Below are positions 35,345-52,151 of a DNA stretch of 64,000 nucleotides, in pieces. Under the pieces are notes generated by a model. The model made no database searches. It worked only from the letters and a program-made list of their open reading frames with translations, and was not told the origin of the DNA. Position 1 is the first letter of the stretch. Each line of letters begins with the position of its first letter. A program made the translations under genes and the position numbers. Origin of the DNA: Lactobacillus sp. (GTDB taxonomy: Bacteria; Bacillota; Bacilli; Lactobacillales; Lactobacillaceae); contig JAKVKU010000007.1 in NCBI GenBank assembly GCA_022484695.1, positions 124,001 to 188,000 of the forward strand, given 5' to 3'.

Positions 35345-36517
35345 TTGGCTTCTAAAACAAAGGGGCTATCTTTAAAATGGCTGTTATTGGGGTCTTTAGT
35401 GACCAATACCGGCATTAGTTTCATCTGGCCACTGACGACGATTTACATGCATGAGTATCTTCATGAGTCCCTGACCGCTGCCGGGATTGTCCTGTTCATC
35501 AACTCCATTGTGATGATTATTGGCAATTACGTAGGTGGTTTTTTATTTGACCGCTGGCAGCCTTATCGGACCATTTTGGTGGGGATCACCATTAATGTGA
35601 TTTCCAGTATTATCTTGATATTCTTTCACGGTTGGCCCAGTTATGCGATTTTCTTAATTATCTTGAGTTTTGGTAACGGTATCGTGGGGACCACCATCAA
35701 TGCCTTTGCCACCCTGGTGGAAAGTCGCCCGGCCAGCTACGTCTTCAATGTGCTGTATTTTATGAGTAATTTAGGCCTAGTCATTGGCACTTTGATCGTG
35801 GGCTTTGTCTTGCCTTACGGGATTCAATGGATCTTTGCCTTGGCGGCGTTGTTGTTTGTGATTTTCTTAGGCGTGGCCGCGGTATTCTACCGGGTCACCA
35901 CCACCAAGAAACGCACCAAACGCACCAAGGGCAGCGAGCAATTAGCCCGGGCCAGTGCCCACAAGATTTTAGGCCTGTTGGCGGTCTTTGTGATTTCTTG
36001 GATCGTTTATGAACAATGGCAAAGTAATATCTCGGCGTTTATGGTCAGCCACGGCATGTCCGTGAAGGATTATACCTTTGTCTGGACCTTTAACGCTATC
36101 GTCATCGTGCTCTTCCAGCCGCTGTTGGCTCATTTTGACCGCTGGTTGTCAGACCATATGATGTTACGGCTAAACGTGGGCTTCTTATTGTTTGGCGGCT
36201 CCTTTGGCATTTTACTGTTGGCCAGTCAGTATTGGCATTTTCTACTGGCCATGGGGGTGTTGACCTTAGGGGAAATTTTAGCTTTTCCTGGGGTCTCCAC
36301 TTATGTGGATGGCCTGGTCTTAGATTCCCAGCGGGGCCAATTCCAAGGCATTGTCAGCGGCACGGCTTCCTTTGGCCGAGCCGTGGGACCGTTGATCGGG
36401 GCCCAGGTGATTGAAAGATCCTCCTACCATCTCTTGTTTTTAGGGTGTATCATTGGCTTAATGATTTTCTTAGCAGGTTTTAATCTTTTGAACCGGCGCA
36501 TTGCCGCACACCAATAA
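35345..36517 (+). CDS. MFS transporter
   Basis: 12-TM MFS; probable TTG start at 35345 after GGGAGGGG. Confidence 0.82.
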   Translation: MASKTKGLSLKWLLLGSLVTNTGISFIWPLTTIYMHEYLHESLTAAGIVLFINSIVMIIGNYVGGFLFDRWQPYRTILVGITINVISSIILIFFHGWPSYAIFLIILSFGNGIVGTTINAFATLVESRPASYVFNVLYFMSNLGLVIGTLIVGFVLPYGIQWIFALAALLFVIFLGVAAVFYRVTTTKKRTKRTKGSEQLARASAHKILGLLAVFVISWIVYEQWQSNISAFMVSHGMSVKDYTFVWTFNAIVIVLFQPLLAHFDRWLSDHMMLRLNVGFLLFGGSFGILLLASQYWHFLLAMGVLTLGEILAFPGVSTYVDGLVLDSQRGQFQGIVSGTASFGRAVGPLIGAQVIERSSYHLLFLGCIIGLMIFLAGFNLLNRRIAAHQ

Positions 36518-36539
36518 AAACATTTAGGAGGCATTATCT

Positions 36540-37400
36540 ATGATCGACGGACACACCCGCTTGTATGGTTTTTTCGCCCATCCCGCGGCCCACAGTAAGT
36601 CACCCCTCATGCACAACACCGCTTTTCAGGCTTTAGGCATCAACGCCCGCTATTTAGCCTTTGATGTGGTCCCAGAAACCCTAGCAGCGGCCATTGACGG
36701 CCTGCGGGCCTTTAACATGGGCGGCGTGAATTTATCCATGCCCTTGAAGGAACAAGTGCTGCCCTTGTTGGATGACTTAGATCCAGCTGCGAAACTCATT
36801 GGGGCGGTGAATACCATTGCCAATGACAACGGCCACTTGACGGGGTATAACACCGATGGCTTAGGGTTGTTAAAGGCCTTAGCCGCCGACTTCAACCCCC
36901 AAGGGGCCAAGGTGGTACTCTTAGGGGCCGGTGGGGCCATTAAGTCCGTGGCTGTCCATTGTGCCCTAGCTGGCGCGGCGGAAATCACCATCTTTAACCG
37001 CCACATTGGCCCCGGCAGTCGGGCCCACACTCTGCAGCAGTTATTGACCACTAACACCAACACCGAGGTCCAAGTCTTTGCCCTGGATGACTTAGCCGCT
37101 TTAAAACAAGCCTTAAACCAAGGTGATTTGTTGGTCAATGGCACCGGGGTGGGGATGGGGCAACTCGTGGATCAAAGTCCAATTCCTGACAGCAGCTATT
37201 TTCAAAAGCAGCTCATTGTCTTTGAAATGATTTATGTACCTGAAGAAACTTTATTGTTACAACAAGCCCGAAAAGCTGGCTTGACGCGAACTTATAATGG
37301 CCTAGGAATGCTGATCCATCAAGGCGCGGCGGCCTTTCATATTTGGACGGGTCAGGACATGCCGGTGCCATTGATAGAAAAAACCATCAAAATTAATTGA
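36540..37400 (+). CDS. aroE: Shikimate dehydrogenase
   Basis: GFFAHPAAHSKSPLMHN, NLSMPLKEQV, GAVNTI, GYNTDGLG. Confidence 0.95.
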   Translation: MIDGHTRLYGFFAHPAAHSKSPLMHNTAFQALGINARYLAFDVVPETLAAAIDGLRAFNMGGVNLSMPLKEQVLPLLDDLDPAAKLIGAVNTIANDNGHLTGYNTDGLGLLKALAADFNPQGAKVVLLGAGGAIKSVAVHCALAGAAEITIFNRHIGPGSRAHTLQQLLTTNTNTEVQVFALDDLAALKQALNQGDLLVNGTGVGMGQLVDQSPIPDSSYFQKQLIVFEMIYVPEETLLLQQARKAGLTRTYNGLGMLIHQGAAAFHIWTGQDMPVPLIEKTIKIN

Positions 37401-37408
37401 AGTTTTAT

Positions 37409-37437
37409 TTGACAGATTCTCATAGAGATGTTATATT
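37409..37437 (+). promoter_or_regulatory. Sigma-A promoter of the tkt-aro leader
   Basis: TTGACA, 17-bp spacer, TATATT. Confidence 0.8.
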
Positions 37438-37467
37438 TACAACATCAAATCTAAGGAGTTTTTAATT

Positions 37468-37518
37468 ATGCGAACATCGAATTTAAACCCAACAACTCGA
37501 TATTACTGGTTTAGCTAG
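37468..37518 (+). CDS. Leader peptide MRTSNLNPTTRYYWFS (Tyr-Tyr-Trp-Phe) of the aromatic biosynthesis operon
   Basis: Read by hand; AAGGAG SD, ATG, consecutive TAT TAC TGG TTT codons, stop TAG; followed by overlapping hairpins and terminators before tkt. Confidence 0.88.
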   Translation: MRTSNLNPTTRYYWFS

Positions 37519-37610
37519 CCTGTGGGCGGTCATGGATATGACCTCCTGCGGGGGGATCATATCTATGATGGCTAAACCTAAGTTTTCGTGTCATTAAAAA
37601 CAAAACGGCT

Positions 37611-37653
37611 GCCACATAGATGAAATCAAGTTTTTCAACTATGTGGCTTTTTT
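37611..37653 (+). terminator. Leader terminator 1
   Basis: GCCACATAG...CTATGTGGCTTTTTTG. Confidence 0.85.
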
Positions 37654-37684
37654 GTATCTTAAACCAGCCCTTTAAGGTACCTAG

Positions 37685-37720
37685 AGTCTTGATAGTTGAA
37701 AAACTATCAGGACTTTTTTT
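37685..37720 (+). terminator. Leader terminator 2
   Basis: AGTCTTGATAGTT-GAA-AAACTATCAGGACTTTTTTT. Confidence 0.88.
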
Positions 37721-37771
37721 ATTGGCAGACGGACAAAACCAACCAGGATGATAAAAATGAGGAGTGATTCC

Positions 37772-39826
37772 ATGTTCGATCAAATTGATGAATTAAGTGT
37801 TAACGCTATCCGAATGTTGAGTGTCCAAAGTATCCAAAAGGCTAATTCTGGCCACCCCGGCTTACCCCTGGGGGCTGCCCCAATGGCTTATGTCTTATAC
37901 CGCAATCATTTAAAAGTAAACCCTAAGGATAGTACTTATTTTGATCGGGATCGCTTCGTTTTATCCGCAGGTCATGGCTCGGCCATGCTCTACAGCATCT
38001 TACATTTAGCTGGCTTTGACTTAAGCATTGATGATTTAAAACAATTCCGCCAGTTGCACAGCAAAACTCCCGGCCATCCCGAATACGGCGTGGTTGACGG
38101 GGTGGAAGCCACTACTGGTCCCCTGGGCCAAGGCTTAGGCATGGCCGTGGGTATGGCCATGGCTGAACGCCACCTAGCCGCCCAATACAACGACGGCATC
38201 AACGTGGTGGACCACCATACTTATGTATTAGCCGGGGACGGGGACTTGATGGAAGGTGTTTCCCATGAAGCTGCTAGCTTAGCCGGCCACTTGGGCCTAG
38301 GTAAGTTGGTCATGCTCTATGATTCCAACGATGTTTCCCTAGATGGTCCCAAGGATCGGGCTTTTAACGAAAACATTCAAAAACGCTTCGAAAGTTACGG
38401 CTGGGATTATCAAAGAGTTGAAGATGGCACGGATTTACAAGCCATTGATGATGCTATTAACCAAGCTAAAGCAGAAGTTAATAAGCCTTCTATTATCGAA
38501 GTTCGGACGGTCATTGGTTACGGGGCGTTAAATGCCGGGACCAACAAAGTCCATGGCGCCCCATTAAGCCCTGAAGACATGGCCGCCGTGCGGGAAACTT
38601 TCAACTGGAATTTAGATGATTTCGAAGTCCCTGCGGAAGTTTACGAGCGGTTACATGAAACCTTAGGCCAACGGGGTTGTAAAGCTGAAGTTAAATGGCT
38701 CAACCGCATTGAAGCCCAACATCAAGCTAACCCAGCACTAGCCCAACAATTCCTGTTGGCCCGGGAGAACCGCTTACCGGAAGACTGGCGCGAAGCGTTA
38801 CCAACTTACTTAACCGGCAGCAGCGAAGCCAGCCGGAACACCAGCCATACCGTGATCCAAGCGTTAGGCAAGAAGATTCCTCAATTATGGGGCGGTTCGG
38901 CTGACTTAGCCAGTTCCAATAAAACGAACATGGAATGTGAGACCCTGTTTGAAAAGGATAACTTGAAAGCTCGAAATCTAGGTTTTGGGGTCCGGGAATT
39001 TGCTGAAGCCACCGCCATGAACGGCATGGCTTTACATGGGGGCACCCGAATTTTCGGCAGTACGTTTTTCGTTTTCTCTGATTACATGCGCCCAGCCATT
39101 CGCTTGGCAGCCATCCAACATTTACCGGTGATTTTCGTCTTGACCCATGACTCGGTGGCCGTTGGCGAGGACGGCCCTACCCATGAACCGGTGGAGCACT
39201 TGATGAGTTTCCGCAATATGCCAAATGTCACGGTGTTGCGGCCAGCCGATGCCAATGAAACCGTAGGGGCTTGGGAAACCGCGATGCAACACCAAGATGG
39301 GCCAACCCTATTGGTCTTGTCCCGGCAAAACTTGAACACCCTGCCGAATTCAGCGAAATTTACCCGGCAAAGTGTGGCCAAGGGGGCTTACATCGTCAAA
39401 GATGTGGCAGATCCCAGCCAACAAGATGGGATTTTAATGGCCACGGGTTCTGAAGTGAACTTGGCCTTGGCTGCCCAAGCTAAATTAGCTGCTGAAGATA
39501 TCCAAGTTTCCGTGGTCTCCATGCCTAGCTTTGAATTGTTCCAGCAACAACCTAAGGCTTACCGGGATGCGGTTTTACCGCCCCATATCCATAAACGGGT
39601 ATCCTTAGAAATGGGTAGCACCTTAGGCTGGGAGCGGTTTGTGGGCTATGAAGGCCTGACCTTAGGCATTGACCGCTTCGGGGAAAGTGGTCCGGCAGCA
39701 GACGTCTTAGCCGAATTAGGTTTCACCACTGACCAAGTGGTGGCCCAATACAAGACGTTGACCGTGACCAACAGCCCTTTGCCCAAACCCACTTTAGCAC
39801 CACTGCGGGCTAACAATTCTCTCTAG
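37772..39826 (+). CDS. tkt: Transketolase
   Basis: [48 protein letters not shown]. Confidence 0.96.
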
Positions 39827-39895
39827 TTTCAAAAAATGTTAAGATAGATGTAATAAGATTCTCATACAACGCAAAAATAAGGAGCGCAAAATTTT

Positions 39896-40915
39896 ATGAT
39901 TATTCAATTCAAAGCACCCATCCAAATGGACATCGTCACAGCCTTACAACAAAAATTAGCTGCTTTACCAGCCCAGGTTTTTGTCATTAAAAATCATTTA
40001 GCTGCCATGGGGGTTAAATCCTTTGACTTCACCACCGCTGAAGCGGCGGCCATTGATAGTGTCAGCTTTGACGATCCCAGCTACACGTTAGGCAGTCGCC
40101 AATTCCAACCTGAAGATACCATTATCGGCTTGCCCCATTCCATTATTGGTGGCGATCACTTCACCATGATGGCCGGTCCTTGTTCCGTGGAATCTGAGGA
40201 ACATGTTAAACGCATGGCCAAAGTTGCCAAAGAAGGGGGCGCCACAATTTTACGGGGCGGTGCTTTTAAACCTAGAACATCCCCATACTCTTTCCAAGGG
40301 TTAGGGGAAGATGGGTTGCGTTTCTTAAGAGAAGCCGCTGATGAAAACGACATGGATATGATCACCGAAGTCATGGATGATACCCATGTACAAATGGTGG
40401 CTGATTACACTGATATTTTCCAAATCGGCGCCCGGAATATGCAAAACTTCTCCTTATTAAAAGAAGTTGGTAAAACTGACGTGGCCGTTGGCTTGAAGCG
40501 GGGCATGTCCGCGACCATCGACGATTTACTGAACGCTGCCGAGTACATCGCCAGTGAAGGGAATCAAAACATCTTCTTAATTGAACGGGGCATTCGCACT
40601 TTCGATAACAAATACACCCGCAACACTTTTGATTTAGGCGCTATTCCCGTCTTGCGCAAATTGACCCACTACCCAATCATCGCTGACCCAAGCCATGCCG
40701 TGGGTGAATGGGATCTGGTAACCCCAATGGCTAACGCGGCCGTAGCTGCCGGTGCCCAAGGGGAAATCGTGGAAATCCATGATGATCCTGAACACGCCTT
40801 ATCCGATGGCCCCCAAGCCTTGAAGCCTAAGACTTACTTAGAAATGTGCCGGGAAGTTTACGCCATTCGCAAAGTCATGGATTCATTCAAGGAAGTCAGT
40901 CATGTCAACAGTTAA
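39896..40915 (+). CDS. aroF: 3-deoxy-7-phosphoheptulonate (DAHP) synthase, AroAII/AroF-like with N-terminal FLD domain
   Basis: MAGPCSVES, GGAFKPRTSPYSFQGLGEDG, ADPSHAVG. Confidence 0.95.
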   Translation: MIIQFKAPIQMDIVTALQQKLAALPAQVFVIKNHLAAMGVKSFDFTTAEAAAIDSVSFDDPSYTLGSRQFQPEDTIIGLPHSIIGGDHFTMMAGPCSVESEEHVKRMAKVAKEGGATILRGGAFKPRTSPYSFQGLGEDGLRFLREAADENDMDMITEVMDDTHVQMVADYTDIFQIGARNMQNFSLLKEVGKTDVAVGLKRGMSATIDDLLNAAEYIASEGNQNIFLIERGIRTFDNKYTRNTFDLGAIPVLRKLTHYPIIADPSHAVGEWDLVTPMANAAVAAGAQGEIVEIHDDPEHALSDGPQALKPKTYLEMCREVYAIRKVMDSFKEVSHVNS

Positions 40916-41984
40916 ACTGGAACTCACCGATAAAAAATATGACATTATCATTGAACCCGGTAGTTTAAAGCAAGTGGGCACCGTGGTGGAAAAAGTCTGG
41001 ACAGCGCGCCAAGTGTTACTGGTCTCCGATTCTAATGTGGCCAAGTTATATTTGACCCAGGTCCAAGAAGCTTTAATGGCCAGCGGTTATGTGGTGACCA
41101 CCAGTGTTGTCCCAGCGGGGGAAGCTTCCAAAAGCCTCAATGTGGCCCAGGATCTATACCGGGTCATGTTAGACCAAGCCTTTACCCGAAGTGACGGCGT
41201 CATTGCCTTAGGTGGTGGCGTAGTGGGGGATTTAGCCGGTTTTGTGGCCTCCACTTTCATGCGGGGCATCAGCTTTATCCAGTTACCAACTTCATTATTG
41301 GCCCAAGTGGACAGCTCTGTAGGGGGCAAAACCGCCGTGGACTTTGGCACCGGTAAAAATCTGGTGGGGACTTTCTACCAACCGGATCTGGTGCTGATCG
41401 ATCCCGACACCTTACAGACCCTAACGCCCCGGTATGTGGCGGAGGGCTATGCTGAAGTCATCAAGATGGCCGCCACAGCCGCCGATCCGGCGTTTTGGCC
41501 CTTGATTGAAAGCATTCAAAAACCCGCCGATATCTTAAAACAGGCTACGGCTTTGATTACCCATAGTGTACAGTTCAAAGCCATGGTGGTGATGAACGAT
41601 GAAAAAGAAACCGGGATGCGCCAAATTTTAAACTTTGGCCATACCTTGGGTCACGCCATTGAACTGTTAGCCCAGGGCAAATTAGCCCATGGAGAAGCCG
41701 TAGCCATTGGCATGGTGCAGATTTGTCGTATCTTTGAAGCCAAGGGGTTGACCCCAGCTGGGACCACCGCCAAGATTCAAAAGCAAGTATCGGCAGTGGG
41801 CTTACCGGTGGATTCGCCTTTGTTATTCACCCCGAAATTTTACGATCAATTGCGCTTAGATAAGAAAAATCGTGGGGATCATTTGAACTTTATTTATTTA
41901 AAAGCTCTGGGTCAACCGGCTATTTATCCAGTGGCTAAGGGTGAAATTAAAGATTTTATCGCTTCTGAAGTATCATCTTCTTAA
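40902..41984 (+). CDS. aroB: 3-dehydroquinate synthase
   Basis: GGGVVGDLAGFVASTFMRGISFIQLPTSLLAQVDSSVGGKT, NFGHTLGHAIE. Confidence 0.96.
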   Translation: MSTVKLELTDKKYDIIIEPGSLKQVGTVVEKVWTARQVLLVSDSNVAKLYLTQVQEALMASGYVVTTSVVPAGEASKSLNVAQDLYRVMLDQAFTRSDGVIALGGGVVGDLAGFVASTFMRGISFIQLPTSLLAQVDSSVGGKTAVDFGTGKNLVGTFYQPDLVLIDPDTLQTLTPRYVAEGYAEVIKMAATAADPAFWPLIESIQKPADILKQATALITHSVQFKAMVVMNDEKETGMRQILNFGHTLGHAIELLAQGKLAHGEAVAIGMVQICRIFEAKGLTPAGTTAKIQKQVSAVGLPVDSPLLFTPKFYDQLRLDKKNRGDHLNFIYLKALGQPAIYPVAKGEIKDFIASEVSSS

Positions 41985-42001
41985 CTTAAATTTGATAAAA
42001 C

Positions 42002-42037
42002 GTGCCGCTTCGATTTCCTTGAAGCGGCCGTTTTTTG
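42002..42037 (+). terminator. Intrinsic terminator-like hairpin between aroB and aroD
   Basis: GCCGCTTC...GAAGCGGCCGTTTTTT. Confidence 0.7.
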
Positions 42038-42055
42038 GCGAAAGGCGGCTTATTT

Positions 42056-42823
42056 ATGGCAACAACGTTTAACATCGGCCCTATTACCCTGGGGCCCCAA
42101 GTACCCACCCAGGTGGCCGTGCCCATCACGGCCACAACCTTACCAGAAGTTTTAGAACAGGGCCAAGCTATTAGTAGCAGCACGGCAGATCTGGCGGAAT
42201 GGCGCCTGGATTATTTGCCGGGGGATACTGGGGAAGCCAGCCTTAAGCAAACCGGGACTGACCTGCAGACCGCTTTACACAAGCAACACAAAGGTTTATT
42301 GGTGACCCTGCGGACCAAAGCTCAGGGCGGTAATTTCACTGGCGATGGCGAGGCTTATTTAACCCAGCTGCAATTTTTGCTGCAACAGGGTTTGGGGGAT
42401 GCCCTGGATTTAGAGTGGACCACTGACCCAGAATGGCGTCGGCAAATTTTAAAGGCCAGCGACTTACTAGGCGTGCCCGTGGTCTTAAGCCATCACGACT
42501 TTAAAGCCACCCCCAGTTTAGCTGCGTTGCAGGATCAACTGACTCAAATGGCCACTTTAAAACCAGCCTTGTTAAAAATCGCCGTGATGCCCCAAAGCAC
42601 CGCGGATGTTTTAACTATTTTACAAGTCGCCCAGTGGGCCGCCACTACCTTAGAAGCGCCCTTAGCCATCATGGGCATGGGGACCTTGGGAAAGCTGACT
42701 AGGGTCAGCGGCAACCTTTTCCCATCAGCATTGACCTTCGCCACCCTCGACCAAGCCTCCGCCCCCGGCCAAATCAGCTTGGCCCGTACCCAAGAAATTC
42801 TGGCTTTATTGCAAGGTAGTTAG
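42056..42823 (+). CDS. aroD: 3-dehydroquinate dehydratase, type I
   Basis: ADLAEWRLDYL, VVLSHHDFKATP, LKIAVMPQS, IMGMGTLGKLTRV. Confidence 0.9.
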   Translation: MATTFNIGPITLGPQVPTQVAVPITATTLPEVLEQGQAISSSTADLAEWRLDYLPGDTGEASLKQTGTDLQTALHKQHKGLLVTLRTKAQGGNFTGDGEAYLTQLQFLLQQGLGDALDLEWTTDPEWRRQILKASDLLGVPVVLSHHDFKATPSLAALQDQLTQMATLKPALLKIAVMPQSTADVLTILQVAQWAATTLEAPLAIMGMGTLGKLTRVSGNLFPSALTFATLDQASAPGQISLARTQEILALLQGS

Positions 42824-42964
42824 AATTTACGTCTGGTTTGAACTGCGGTAAAAAAAGGAGAATGCTGATGTAGTAGCATCCTTGCGTCTGATTTGTATTT
42901 GTTTGCGTCTTATTAGACCAACGGGAGGATATATGGCATGATATAGGCGTGAGGGGGGATTTCA

Positions 42965-43228
42965 TTGATTAATAAAATTACAACACCCACTAAGGCTCAA
43001 GCTAATTTATTTAAACTAATCGAAGAAACTAATCGTGATTCACGACCAGTCATCATTGCCGGCAGTGACGATGCTGAAAGTGCCGTATTAATTGGCAAAC
43101 GGGACTATGACGCTTTGCAAGAGACCATGGCACTACTTATGAATGGGCAATTACAGACCGCTAAAACAAGAGAACATGACAAATCTGTTAACATCGATGC
43201 GATGATACACGAGATCGATAATCGGTAA
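42965..43228 (+). CDS. Phd/YefM-family antitoxin, apparently orphan
   Basis: TPTKAQANLFKLIEETNRDSRPVIIAG...AVLIGKRDYDALQET; TTG start. Confidence 0.8.
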   Translation: MINKITTPTKAQANLFKLIEETNRDSRPVIIAGSDDAESAVLIGKRDYDALQETMALLMNGQLQTAKTREHDKSVNIDAMIHEIDNR

Positions 43229-43291
43229 AAACGATGACGAAGCAAACATGAAAATACAGCTACATTATAAAAAGTATTCAGACAAAAAGAA

Positions 43292-43338
43292 CTCGAGACA
43301 AAACTGAGAATAGTTTTGCTTCGAGTTCTTTTCTTATT
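43292..43338. terminator. Terminator between the convergent antitoxin gene and sulfur operon
   Basis: GAACTCGAG(A)CAAAACT...AGTTTTG(CT)TCGAGTTCTTTTCTT. Confidence 0.75.
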
Positions 43339-43351
43339 AGTTCATTTTTAG

Positions 43352-44554
43352 TTACCCAACGACCTTACTAGCCCGCCGTTTCAAACTACTGGTCAGAGCC
43401 TGAGTCACGTCGTGGATGATGTCGTTTTTGTTTTCGATACCCACGGAGAAGCGGACCATGTTGTCGCCCACGCCGATTTTTTCCAAATCATTGCGGGGAT
43501 AAGGTTCATGGGTCATGGTTGCGGGCCGACAGACGAGGCTTTCGACCCCGCCTAAACTAACGGCTAAGTCGATCATTTGTAGGTTGTTGAAGAAGGCCTT
43601 TAAGTCCACGTCTGGGGTGACTTCAAAGGATAAAACGGCACCGTTGCCCCGGGCTTGTTTGGCCTGGATGGCCGCTTCTTCTTCGGAGAAGGAACCTGGG
43701 AAGTAGACTTTGGCCACACCTTCTTGGGTCTGCAAGGCTTCGGTGACAGCTTTGACATTTTCCATCTGGCGATCTAAGCGCAGGCTTAAGGTCTTGGTGC
43801 CTCGAATCAAAGTGTAGCTGTCAAAGGGACTGATGGTGGCCCCCAAGGTGTTTTGATAATCTTGGAATTGTTCCGCCAGGTCTTGGCGGTCGGTGACGAT
43901 GAAGCCGGCACACAGGTCGGCATGGCCCCCGTAATATTTCGTGGCGGAATAAGCTACCACGTCGGCCCCTAATTGGAGGGGTTTTTGCAGGTAACTGGTC
44001 ATGAAGGTGTTGTCCACGATCAAGATAGCCCCATGGTCATGGGCCAACTTGGCGATCCGGGCGATATCCACCACCCGTAAAGTGGGGTTGGCTGGAGATT
44101 CCAGGAAGACCGCCTTGGTATTAGGTTTGAAGTCGCTGGCTTTGAGTTGGTTCAAATCATAATAAAAATCACAATCGATTTTTTTCTTCGGGAAGAAGTC
44201 GGTGAAGTACCGGTAAGTGCCACCATAAATATTGGCAGAACTAATAATATGATCCCCAGGATTAAAGGCTTCAAAAACCGTGGTCAAAGCCGCCATCCCC
44301 GAACTAAAGCCAAAGGCAAACTTGGCCCCTTCTAACGTAGCAATCAAGTTCTCCGCCTTTTGTCGGGTGGGGTTTTGCGTGCGCACATATTCATAAGGCC
44401 CCTGGTTATCAATATCTTCAAACCGATAAGTACTAGATAAGAAAATTGGCGGCATGATACTGCCGTACTCATTTTTCCGAGCAGGAACACCCTGCACTAC
44501 TAAAGAATCAAATTGCAATTTTTGATCATCATGATTTGTACAACCCATATTCAA
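43352..44554 (-). CDS. Trans-sulfuration family PLP enzyme (cystathionine gamma/beta-lyase or synthase)
   Basis: AYSATKYYGGHADLCAG PLP-lysine motif; SLGGVESLVCRPATMTH. Confidence 0.9.
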   Translation of the reverse strand: MNMGCTNHDDQKLQFDSLVVQGVPARKNEYGSIMPPIFLSSTYRFEDIDNQGPYEYVRTQNPTRQKAENLIATLEGAKFAFGFSSGMAALTTVFEAFNPGDHIISSANIYGGTYRYFTDFFPKKKIDCDFYYDLNQLKASDFKPNTKAVFLESPANPTLRVVDIARIAKLAHDHGAILIVDNTFMTSYLQKPLQLGADVVAYSATKYYGGHADLCAGFIVTDRQDLAEQFQDYQNTLGATISPFDSYTLIRGTKTLSLRLDRQMENVKAVTEALQTQEGVAKVYFPGSFSEEEAAIQAKQARGNGAVLSFEVTPDVDLKAFFNNLQMIDLAVSLGGVESLVCRPATMTHEPYPRNDLEKIGVGDNMVRFSVGIENKNDIIHDVTQALTSSLKRRASKVVG

Positions 44555-45808: not shown

Positions 45809-46927
45809 CTAGTCGTCTTGCCAGACACTTTGAGCCACATCACGTACTAAGGAAAGTTTGCCCCATTGGTCATCTGGCGTCAAGCGGTTCCCTTCTTCTG
45901 TGGAGGCAAAGCCACATTGCGACGACAGGCATAAATCAGCTAAAGGATAGTATTGACTGGCTTCTTTGATGCGGGCTTTGAGGTCAGCGGGATCTTCTAG
46001 TTCAGGGAACTTACTGGTAACTAGGCCTAAAACCACCCGTTGGTCCAAGCCGTTGGCGGCAATTTTAGCCAAGGGTTCAAAGCCCCCGGAGCGTTCGTCG
46101 TCATATTCCAGGAAGTAGCCGTCGATGTGTAATTGGGCTAAGTAATCGGCCACGGGATCATAAGCCCCGGCACCGGCCCAAGTGGAATCATAGTTGCCCC
46201 GACACACATGCATGGTTAAGGTCAAATCGTCAGGTTTGTTGTCGGCAATGGCGTTGATGGCCTTCACGGCAGCTTCAGCCAGTGGGACTAAGTCTGGATT
46301 TAAAGTGTCTTTAGAAAAACTGGCCCACATGCCCCAAGAGGTGTCGTCCAGTTGCAGGTAGCGACAGCCTAAATCATAAAAGCGTTGTACAGTGGTTTGA
46401 TAAGCTTGGATCTCGTTAGCTAAGAAGGCTTCAAAGTCACCTTTATAGTAAGTGTCGATGACTTTGGCTTCGTCGTTGGGGAAGAAAACAGAGGGGCTGG
46501 GGATGGTTTGTTTTAAGGTAATGCCGTCTGGCACCAAAGCTTTGGTCCGGGTGAAACCTTCAAAGAAGGGATGTTCAGGATTATAGGCTAATTTGCCGTC
46601 GATCTTGATACCGCCTTTGCGGGTTTCCTCCCCATTGAAGGTATAGCCATGCTCAGGGGTGAAGAAGTGGGCCCCTTGCAGACCAGCAAAGAAATCCAAG
46701 TGCCACCAGCTGCGACGGAATTCACCATCAGTGACCGCTTTATAGCCTAGATCCACTTGTTTGGCGATGATCGTCTTGATTTCTTCATCTTCAATTTCAT
46801 GCAATTGTTTCGGGGTGATCTGCCCATTTTCTAAAGCTGCCCGGGCTTGTTTCAAGTGTGCGGGTCGTAATAGACTGCCCACTAAATCGTAACGATATGG
46901 AAACTTAACTTTGGTTTCAACTGCCAT
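45809..46927 (-). CDS. Cobalamin-independent methionine synthase family (MetE C-terminal/YxjG-like)
   Basis: DLVGSLLRPAHLKQAR, TDGEFRRSWWHLDFF, MHVCRGNYDSTW, SSQCGFASTEEGN. Confidence 0.9.
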   Translation of the reverse strand: MAVETKVKFPYRYDLVGSLLRPAHLKQARAALENGQITPKQLHEIEDEEIKTIIAKQVDLGYKAVTDGEFRRSWWHLDFFAGLQGAHFFTPEHGYTFNGEETRKGGIKIDGKLAYNPEHPFFEGFTRTKALVPDGITLKQTIPSPSVFFPNDEAKVIDTYYKGDFEAFLANEIQAYQTTVQRFYDLGCRYLQLDDTSWGMWASFSKDTLNPDLVPLAEAAVKAINAIADNKPDDLTLTMHVCRGNYDSTWAGAGAYDPVADYLAQLHIDGYFLEYDDERSGGFEPLAKIAANGLDQRVVLGLVTSKFPELEDPADLKARIKEASQYYPLADLCLSSQCGFASTEEGNRLTPDDQWGKLSLVRDVAQSVWQDD

Positions 46928-46967: not shown

Positions 46968-47220
46968 ATAAAAAAACGCCCTCAGCAAAAATTGCTAAGG
47001 GCGACTACATCGCGGTACCACCTTAAATTTTGGCGGTCTTCACAGGCCACCACTTCACCGGTACCCTAAAGGATACCGTAACGCGCTAATGGGCGCACCC
47101 ATTTCAACTTTACCCTAGGGCTCAGCTGAAAAACGCTCAAAGACCATTTTCGTATTCGTAAGGCCATCGACTCACACCAACCGTCGACTCTCTTAGACCT
47201 GTAAAATACTACTTATCTTT
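46968..47220 (-). ncRNA. T-box riboswitch upstream of the sulfur amino acid operon, probably Met (AUG) specifier
   Basis: On the minus strand: AGAGAG, GAAAATGGTCTTTGAGC specifier region, GGTGGTACCGCG T-box, terminator CGCCCTTAGCAATTTTTGCTGAGGGCGTTTTTT. Confidence 0.9.
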
Positions 47221-47280
47221 TCATGGCGTTCTAATAATCTGCTAACTTGTTTGTAAGTATAGGGGGCTTTGGCAGGTTTG

Positions 47281-51757: not shown

Positions 51758-51917
51758 AAAAAAAGCTCACAAGAAACCAGCTTGTCAGCGCTTTGCAATC
51801 CTAGAGAGATGTTTGAAAGACAGAGCACACATTCCCTACGCAAGCACTAACTTACAGGTTCCAAGGGGCCGAGCCCAACAGGCCCATCTCAGTTGCTCAC
51901 GGCAACATCCCTAGTGT
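51758..51917 (-). ncRNA. TPP riboswitch with downstream terminator
   Basis: Minus strand: ACTAGGGATG...CTGAGATGGG...CCCCTTGGAACCTGTAAGTTAGTGCTTGCGTAGGGAATGTG (thi-box), then GCTGACAAGCTGGTTTCTTGTGAGCTTTTTT; upstream of thiM. Confidence 0.95.
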
Positions 51918-52151
51918 TTTGTTTAACAATAAGGTTGTACCATATAACCGCCAGGCGCGTCAATTTGAGGCGGTGCGGCTTGAACAAGTTGGTAATGTTA
52001 ACCAAAAGCGGCGTTAACAGCCCAGCAGACAGCTAATTTGGCCCTTTGCCCAAGTTTTTTTGGCAAAGTGGGGCTGGTTTTAAGGCCGTTTAAAGTTGTA
52101 GAATGTAACTGTAGTCGTTACAACTGGTTTCTTGGAAAGGGGATTTGTTTT

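Follow-up and report, generated by a model that had tools for sequence, protein, structure and literature searches.

The DNA analysed here (the window, a stretch of 64,000 nucleotides) belongs to a source assembly of 3.34 Mb corresponding to Agrilactobacillus composti, with an aroF gene 100% identical to that of strain DSM 18527. On its forward strand, the operon tkt-aroF-aroB-aroD predicted by the initial annotation was confirmed by Pfam and consists of tkt (transketolase domains, 37772..39826, with a Shine-Dalgarno (SD) sequence AGGAG just upstream), aroF (DAHP synthase, 39896-40915), aroB (3-dehydroquinate synthase, 40902-41984) and aroD (type I dehydroquinase, with a start near 42059 and an end at 42823), tkt being the first gene under the proposed regulation. 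The complementary strand of the window also carries a T-box leader (46994-47233) upstream of a MetE-like gene (45809-46927), and a TPP riboswitch (51815-51922).

Upstream of tkt, a forward-strand promoter (37409..37437) composed of TTGACA (37409-37414), a spacer of 17 nt and TATATT (37432-37437) with an extended -10 TG matches the consensus at 11 of 12 positions and ranks first among the 11 promoter-like sites found in a scan of 6.9 kb (36500-43400). It is followed on the same strand (37453..37518) by an SD sequence AAGGAG (37453-37458) and a leader ORF running from ATG at 37468 to TAG at 37518, which encodes the 16-codon peptide MRTSNLNPTTRYYWFS and terminates in CGA TAT TAC TGG TTT AGC TAG (RYYWFS). 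The control codons Tyr12, Tyr13, Trp14 and Phe15 occupy 37501-37512; both the consensus promoter and the ORF with consecutive Tyr-Tyr-Trp-Phe codons initially described are thus present. No second copy of the leader was found by BLAST in the genome of the window.

Folding of the leader RNA gave a z-score of -8.6, none of 200 shuffled sequences being as stable. Seven segments were defined, with segment 0 just after the stop codon, segments 1 and 2 as the arms of P1, 3 and 4 as the arms of terminator T1, and 5 and 6 as those of terminator T2; they combine into two mutually exclusive sets of forward-strand helices, OFF (1:2, 3:4 and 5:6) and ON (0:1, 2:3 and 4:5). In the OFF set, P1 (37508..37578) pairs 37529-37546 with 37551-37569 and is extended by the control codons, the annotated pairing of the Trp-Phe-Ser codons GGTTTAGC (37508-37515) with GCTAAACC (37571-37578) being reproduced and lengthened by the minimum-energy fold to 37508-37516:37570-37578. 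Tandem terminators had also been proposed, and T1 (37611..37653, stem 37611-37647 plus U-tract) and T2 (37684..37720, stem 37684-37715 plus U-tract) were both detected as such in the window's own copy of the locus (L081). The ON set comprises the 0:1 hairpin directly downstream of the stop codon (37524..37547; 37524-37526:37545-37547 and 37528-37533:37538-37543), the 2:3 antiterminator helix (37560..37622; 37560-37567:37615-37622 and 37569-37572:37611-37614) and the 4:5 relay helix (37629..37705), in which the T1 3' arm pairs with the T2 5' arm (37629-37642:37692-37705). The 0:1 hairpin and the pairing of segment 2 with the T1 5' arm (37560-37572:37611-37622) were absent from the initial annotation, as were the sub-threshold Rfam matches described below.

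Once the 2:3 helix is imposed on the window RNA, the rest folds spontaneously into the 4:5 helix, and the ON state reaches -48.3 kcal/mol compared with -51.1 kcal/mol for OFF, a difference of 2.8 kcal/mol (positions 37555-37724, 2:3 imposed for ON). The perfect complementarity between the two 4:5 arms, already noted as making the two terminators mutually exclusive, stands as an observation, its reading being corrected: it is best read as a relay passing the antitermination decision from T1 to T2. Comparison of the T2 stem (37684-37715) with that of A. composti DSM 18527 (locus L001) displays paired changes, namely A-U to G-C at 37694:37705 and U-G to C-G at 37689:37710.

T-box and TRAP are the usual regulators of aromatic operons in low-GC Gram-positive bacteria, whose aromatic regulation was reportedly the subject of a comparative study in 2003. 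Their involvement at this leader can be practically discounted, since RF00230 does not match it, although a T-box was found elsewhere in the window, and (G/U)AG triplets spaced as for TRAP occur in runs of at most 1, against a criterion of about 11 triplets 2-3 nt apart. The trpX gene of Streptococcus suis is reported to use a T-box (PMC9382623).

Leader peptide and competing helices in related species

Lack of leader peptide conservation had been named beforehand as an observation that would speak against the attenuator. In a comparison set of 80 aroF loci from named, related genomes, an SD-led leader ORF with clustered Tyr/Trp/Phe codons was found upstream of the operon at 66 loci, while these loci, about 1 Mb in all, contained some 15 unrelated ORFs of that type; the leader peptide is conserved. 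The NRFYYYWF type is that of Liquorilactobacillus, Lactiplantibacillus, Levilactobacillus and Lentilactobacillus, other types being NRYYYFGWFR in Sporolactobacillus, NRFSYYW in Secundilactobacillus, YYAWYAFY in Lacticaseibacillus and RYYWFS in Agrilactobacillus. Codon use in the leaders is TAT 133 and TAC 60 for Tyr, and TTT 82 and TTC 15 for Phe. The gene downstream of the aromatic leaders varies (tkt, aroE, aroF or aroC), all of these acting in or feeding the common aromatic pathway.

In Agrilactobacillus yilanensis the leader exists in two copies, one upstream of tkt and the other, a second RYYWFS leader (L002:2410-2454), upstream of aroE; downstream of the latter no terminator was returned by the scan, and one hairpin with a U-tract is seen by eye. 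Companilactobacillus versmoldensis carries a leader SSWYYYFINE upstream of aroC (L080:1658-1732). In Limosilactobacillus caccae, a leader KYYYSNAYFA with two terminators lies upstream of an NhaC-family antiporter gene (L047:1596-1658), whose product is possibly a Tyr-responsive transporter.

The variation among leader types bears on an arrest of the TnaC kind, in which the leader peptide, contacting the exit tunnel together with a free aromatic amino acid, would hold the ribosome, rather than codon starvation doing so. The residues preceding the aromatic cluster (N-R, L-N) are indeed conserved in many leaders, but the order and number of the aromatic residues differ by genus (YYWF, FYYYWF, YYAWYAFY, FSYYW), which fits codon counting better, and a biosynthetic operon should be induced by the lack of its amino acid rather than by excess. 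Such an arrest is consequently very improbable, and codon counting is retained in what follows.

Helix conservation was evaluated in 64 species by comparing own-species pairing energies with those of cross-genus swaps, and by dinucleotide shuffles; these tests replaced column-wise pair counts because MAFFT left the T2 arms unaligned across genera. The competing helices recur and co-vary over 17 genus-level groups. Between the control codons and segment 2, pairing reached -27.6 kcal/mol with the species' own arms and -19.1 kcal/mol after cross-genus swaps, the corresponding values being -15.6 and -12.8 kcal/mol for 2:3, and -19.0 and -12.0 kcal/mol for 4:5 (n = 64 in each case). The 4:5 relay was better than dinucleotide shuffles (z below -2) in 58 of the 64 species, with a mean z of -3.75 across the 17 genus-level groups. 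For 2:3, 31 of 64 species were better than shuffles (mean z -2.1), and this helix is the weakest supported in the swap test, falling individually below 5% in 4/64 only. Equivalents of the 0:1 hairpin, which starts at the stop codon in most leaders, gave a mean z of -2.9 in the 64 aro leaders and of -4.0 in 100 RF04312 leaders.

These results also weigh on the alternative that the leader switches T1 only, T2 being independent and the complementarity between the two a by-product of terminator duplication. The arms of T1 and T2 are alike, as expected of duplicated hairpins; against this, 4:5 is kept with compensating changes in the 17 groups and in the RF02863 relatives. Furthermore, 3:4 is without a U-tract in Secundilactobacillus, Limosilactobacillus and several RF02863 leaders, where T2 is the sole terminator, so that the relay is needed there to link peptide and terminator and is the only visible connection between them. 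Switching of T1 alone is therefore unlikely, and the relay reading is preferred.

Modelled ribosome positions and the proposed mechanism

Folding of the full-length leader at equilibrium with a ribosome footprint gave both terminators at every ribosome position (the ORF start used was 2 nt too far downstream, an effect judged minor). An E. coli trpL control likewise folds with its terminator at equilibrium. Consequently, full-length equilibrium folding is not decisive, and the choice between the two states would need to be made kinetically. In the scan that replaced it, RNA cut before the T1 3' arm was folded with the ribosome placed. On species average, placing the A site on the first four cluster codons then moves the fold toward the 2:3 antiterminator by 5.0-5.4 kcal/mol; with the ribosome at the stop codon the balance is 0.4 kcal/mol unfavourable for the antiterminator, the shift being lost or reversed past the aromatic cluster because the ribosome then covers segment 0. 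Ribosome positions on early codons also shift the species average by about 4 kcal/mol. RF04312 leaders display a similar profile around their Trp codons, with -3.0 kcal/mol at the second codon after the first Trp. For the window alone, the antiterminator lies uphill by 6 kcal/mol when the ribosome sits on Tyr12/Tyr13 and by 10.5 kcal/mol without a ribosome, a shift of about 4 kcal/mol that is equalled or exceeded at early-codon positions. Expected pair counts for 2:3 in the cut RNA were mixed (18/64 for the first aromatic codon), and it was through this result that the 0:1 hairpin came to be recognised. Within the attenuation model, these ribosome-position energetics are the weakest step.

The energy shift with modelled ribosome position is, like the ORF, the helices and their conservation and covariation, a result of computation. 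From this comparative and energetic evidence we infer a conserved attenuator whose mixed-codon leader peptide works through a relay of tandem hairpins, together with the actual ribosome stalling, kinetics and amino-acid response that it would involve. The leader is very probably a ribosome-mediated transcription attenuator that senses Tyr, Trp and Phe supply for tkt-aroF-aroB-aroD. Were any of the three charged tRNAs scarce, the ribosome would stall on Tyr12-Phe15, keeping the control codons from pairing with segment 2 and leaving segment 0 free, whereupon 0:1 would form. Segment 2 would then pair with segment 3, preventing T1, and the freed T1 3' arm (4) would pair with the T2 5' arm (5), preventing T2 and allowing the operon to be read. 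With all three amino acids plentiful, the ribosome would reach the stop codon and cover segment 0; 1:2, T1 (3:4) and T2 (5:6) would form and transcription would stop. In the absence of translation, the control codons would strengthen P1 and keep the operon off.

Two features expected of an attenuator are found at this locus: a short ORF that can be translated and contains codons for the amino acids under regulation, and mutually exclusive terminator and antiterminator helices, 2:3 being the weaker. Control by mixed Tyr/Trp/Phe codons, as put forward in the initial annotation, is supported by leader conservation, helix covariation and a codon content matching the regulated gene; among the related elements, Trp codons go with trpX and trpB, Tyr/Phe codons with aroE and DAHP synthase, and His codons with hisZ.

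Relationship to RF04312 and RF02863

The comparison with Rfam called for initially gave no match to the window's leader at gathering thresholds; below them, it returned RF04312 at 44.3 bits (E 4e-5; gathering 59), which makes the leader a relative and not a member, and RF02863 at 26.3 bits, below its gathering threshold of 61, so that the leader is not a member of that family either. RF04312 matches the aro leaders of Sporolactobacillus and A. yilanensis at the right place and gave no match in the aro leaders of more distant genera; for this reason, homology with RF04312 across the aro branch as a whole is treated as graded rather than proven. This family (SRC-39-1, the trpB ncRNA motif), with more than 900 reported members, was described as a strong riboswitch candidate by authors who left a classic attenuator possible (Narunsky et al. 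2024, PMC11109978). In our sample of Bacilli and Lactobacillales genomes, matches occurred in 20/401 Bacilli and 215/400 Lactobacillales.

Of the 105 RF04312 matches examined, 97 are preceded by an SD-led uORF that has Trp close to its C-terminus and stops 0-35 nt ahead of the motif, compared with 117 of 4523 control anchors (2.6%). The leader peptides read SWQNWRR, NWQSWRK, NRWQSR and the like, and the neighbouring genes, among those checked, encode TrpX (above the NCBIfam cut-off) and TrpB. Outside the order, a QFHHHHRF leader upstream of a HisZ-like gene (L092, strand -, match 1501-1608) has the same scaffold with His codons, and two RF04312 matches carry Tyr/Phe codons. Three matches outside the order and below 44 bits (L098, L099 and L101) are without a uORF and resemble false matches. 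At another locus, L104, matches to a group II intron (1688-2004; 144.6 and 63.9 bits) lie directly downstream of the terminator of an RF04312 element, as though insertion had occurred at the attenuator.

The window's leader shares with RF04312 the P1 core CAUAGAUA...UAUCUAUG, an antiterminator in the P1 3' shoulder, a terminator with a CAUAG 5' arm and the upstream leader ORF found here. It differs in its Tyr-Tyr-Trp-Phe codons, those of RF04312 being Trp and the regulated genes trpX or trpB, and in having two terminators, a leader ORF and a 0:1 hairpin, whereas the published model, as given in the paper's text, has one terminator and neither of the other two. Were the leader a metabolite-binding riboswitch, as proposed for RF04312, the short ORF would be incidental. 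The standing of RF04312 as a strong candidate, its conserved P1 and terminator (PMC11109978) and the window's match to it speak for this reading, but a riboswitch would need no such ORF, let alone one at a fixed distance and so far above the control frequency; nor should a ligand site vary with the codons, and the exceptions carry His codons upstream of hisZ or Tyr/Phe codons; the authors of RF04312 themselves kept the classic attenuator possible. Metabolite binding is thus very improbable, and attenuation by the leader peptide is the explanation retained.

RF02863 (Enterococcus sRNA 2410) was described in E. faecium as an sRNA of 195 nt, validated by Northern blot with two bands (PMC5593968), which is consistent with terminated leaders. 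At all 20 loci (L188-L207), a YYFSYFR or FYFSYFR leader ORF was found, followed by aroE, DAHP synthase or a TrpX-like ABC binding protein falling under the TrpX cut-off. The family resembles the window's leader in its Tyr/Phe codons, in F-S codons UUUAGC pairing with GGCUAAA, in a 4:5 relay between the hairpins 3:4 and 5:6 (-14.3 kcal/mol for own arms, -7.9 kcal/mol after swaps) and in its position upstream of aroE or DAHP synthase; it differs in that its codons are without Trp, in being filed as an sRNA and in a 3:4 hairpin often without a U-tract. Two TrpX relatives under the NCBIfam TrpX cut-off lie behind Tyr/Phe-codon leaders (L195:378-1352 and L095:407-1405, both on strand -), which suggests that they transport Tyr/Phe rather than Trp.

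Taken together, it is likely that RF04312 and RF02863 are fragments of one leader-peptide attenuator superfamily of Lactobacillales and other Bacilli, in which a scaffold would be re-targeted by its control codons (Trp, Tyr/Phe, Tyr-Trp-Phe or His), with the aro branch adding a relay through which one leader peptide is coupled to two hairpins, often both terminators.

Known attenuators and significance

In the enterobacterial his leader (RF00514), segments A-F form a relay of mutually exclusive helices driven by the stalled ribosome. The likeness lies in this six-segment relay and the difference in termination, only the last hairpin terminating there and both 3:4 and 5:6 here. The trp and pheA leaders of E. 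coli carry codons of the regulated amino acid and follow a 1:2, 2:3, 3:4 logic, with a single amino acid and a single terminator, where the window's leader has three amino acids and two terminators. The initial annotation regarded ribosome-mediated attenuation with mixed Y/W/F codons as classically proteobacterial; leader-peptide attenuation is not confined to proteobacteria, as it is described in Firmicutes for his (PMC2965389, PMC9413887) and ilv (PMC5794164). These attenuators share the ribosome-mediated principle and concern other amino acids and genes, with no tie to RF04312 or RF02863 stated in the accessible parts of the sources. Upstream of aroF in Acholeplasma, the uORFC-13-1 motif (24 examples, PMC8632094) similarly combines a uORF having Phe codons with a terminator; it belongs to another clade, has another structure, and is described without a Tyr or Trp cluster. 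A search of the open-access literature turned up no paper describing an aromatic leader peptide in lactic acid bacteria, control of RF04312 by a leader peptide, or the identity of sRNA 2410 as an aro leader; given this scope, priority is not certain.

The finding matters chiefly because it ties together, and probably accounts for, two Rfam families whose function was unknown or wrongly assigned. If true, both would be reclassified: the orphan riboswitch candidate RF04312 would become a testable leader-peptide attenuator, sparing a vain hunt for a ligand, and a Northern-validated enterococcal sRNA would be reread as an aro operon leader cut short by termination. The codon content of the leader suggests, in addition, a rule for the substrate of TrpX-like transporters, Trp or Tyr/Phe. 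For lactic acid bacteria, the attenuator would represent a common strategy, distinct from T-box and TRAP, for aromatic amino acids, in which a single peptide may report three amino acids and a relay would control two terminators.
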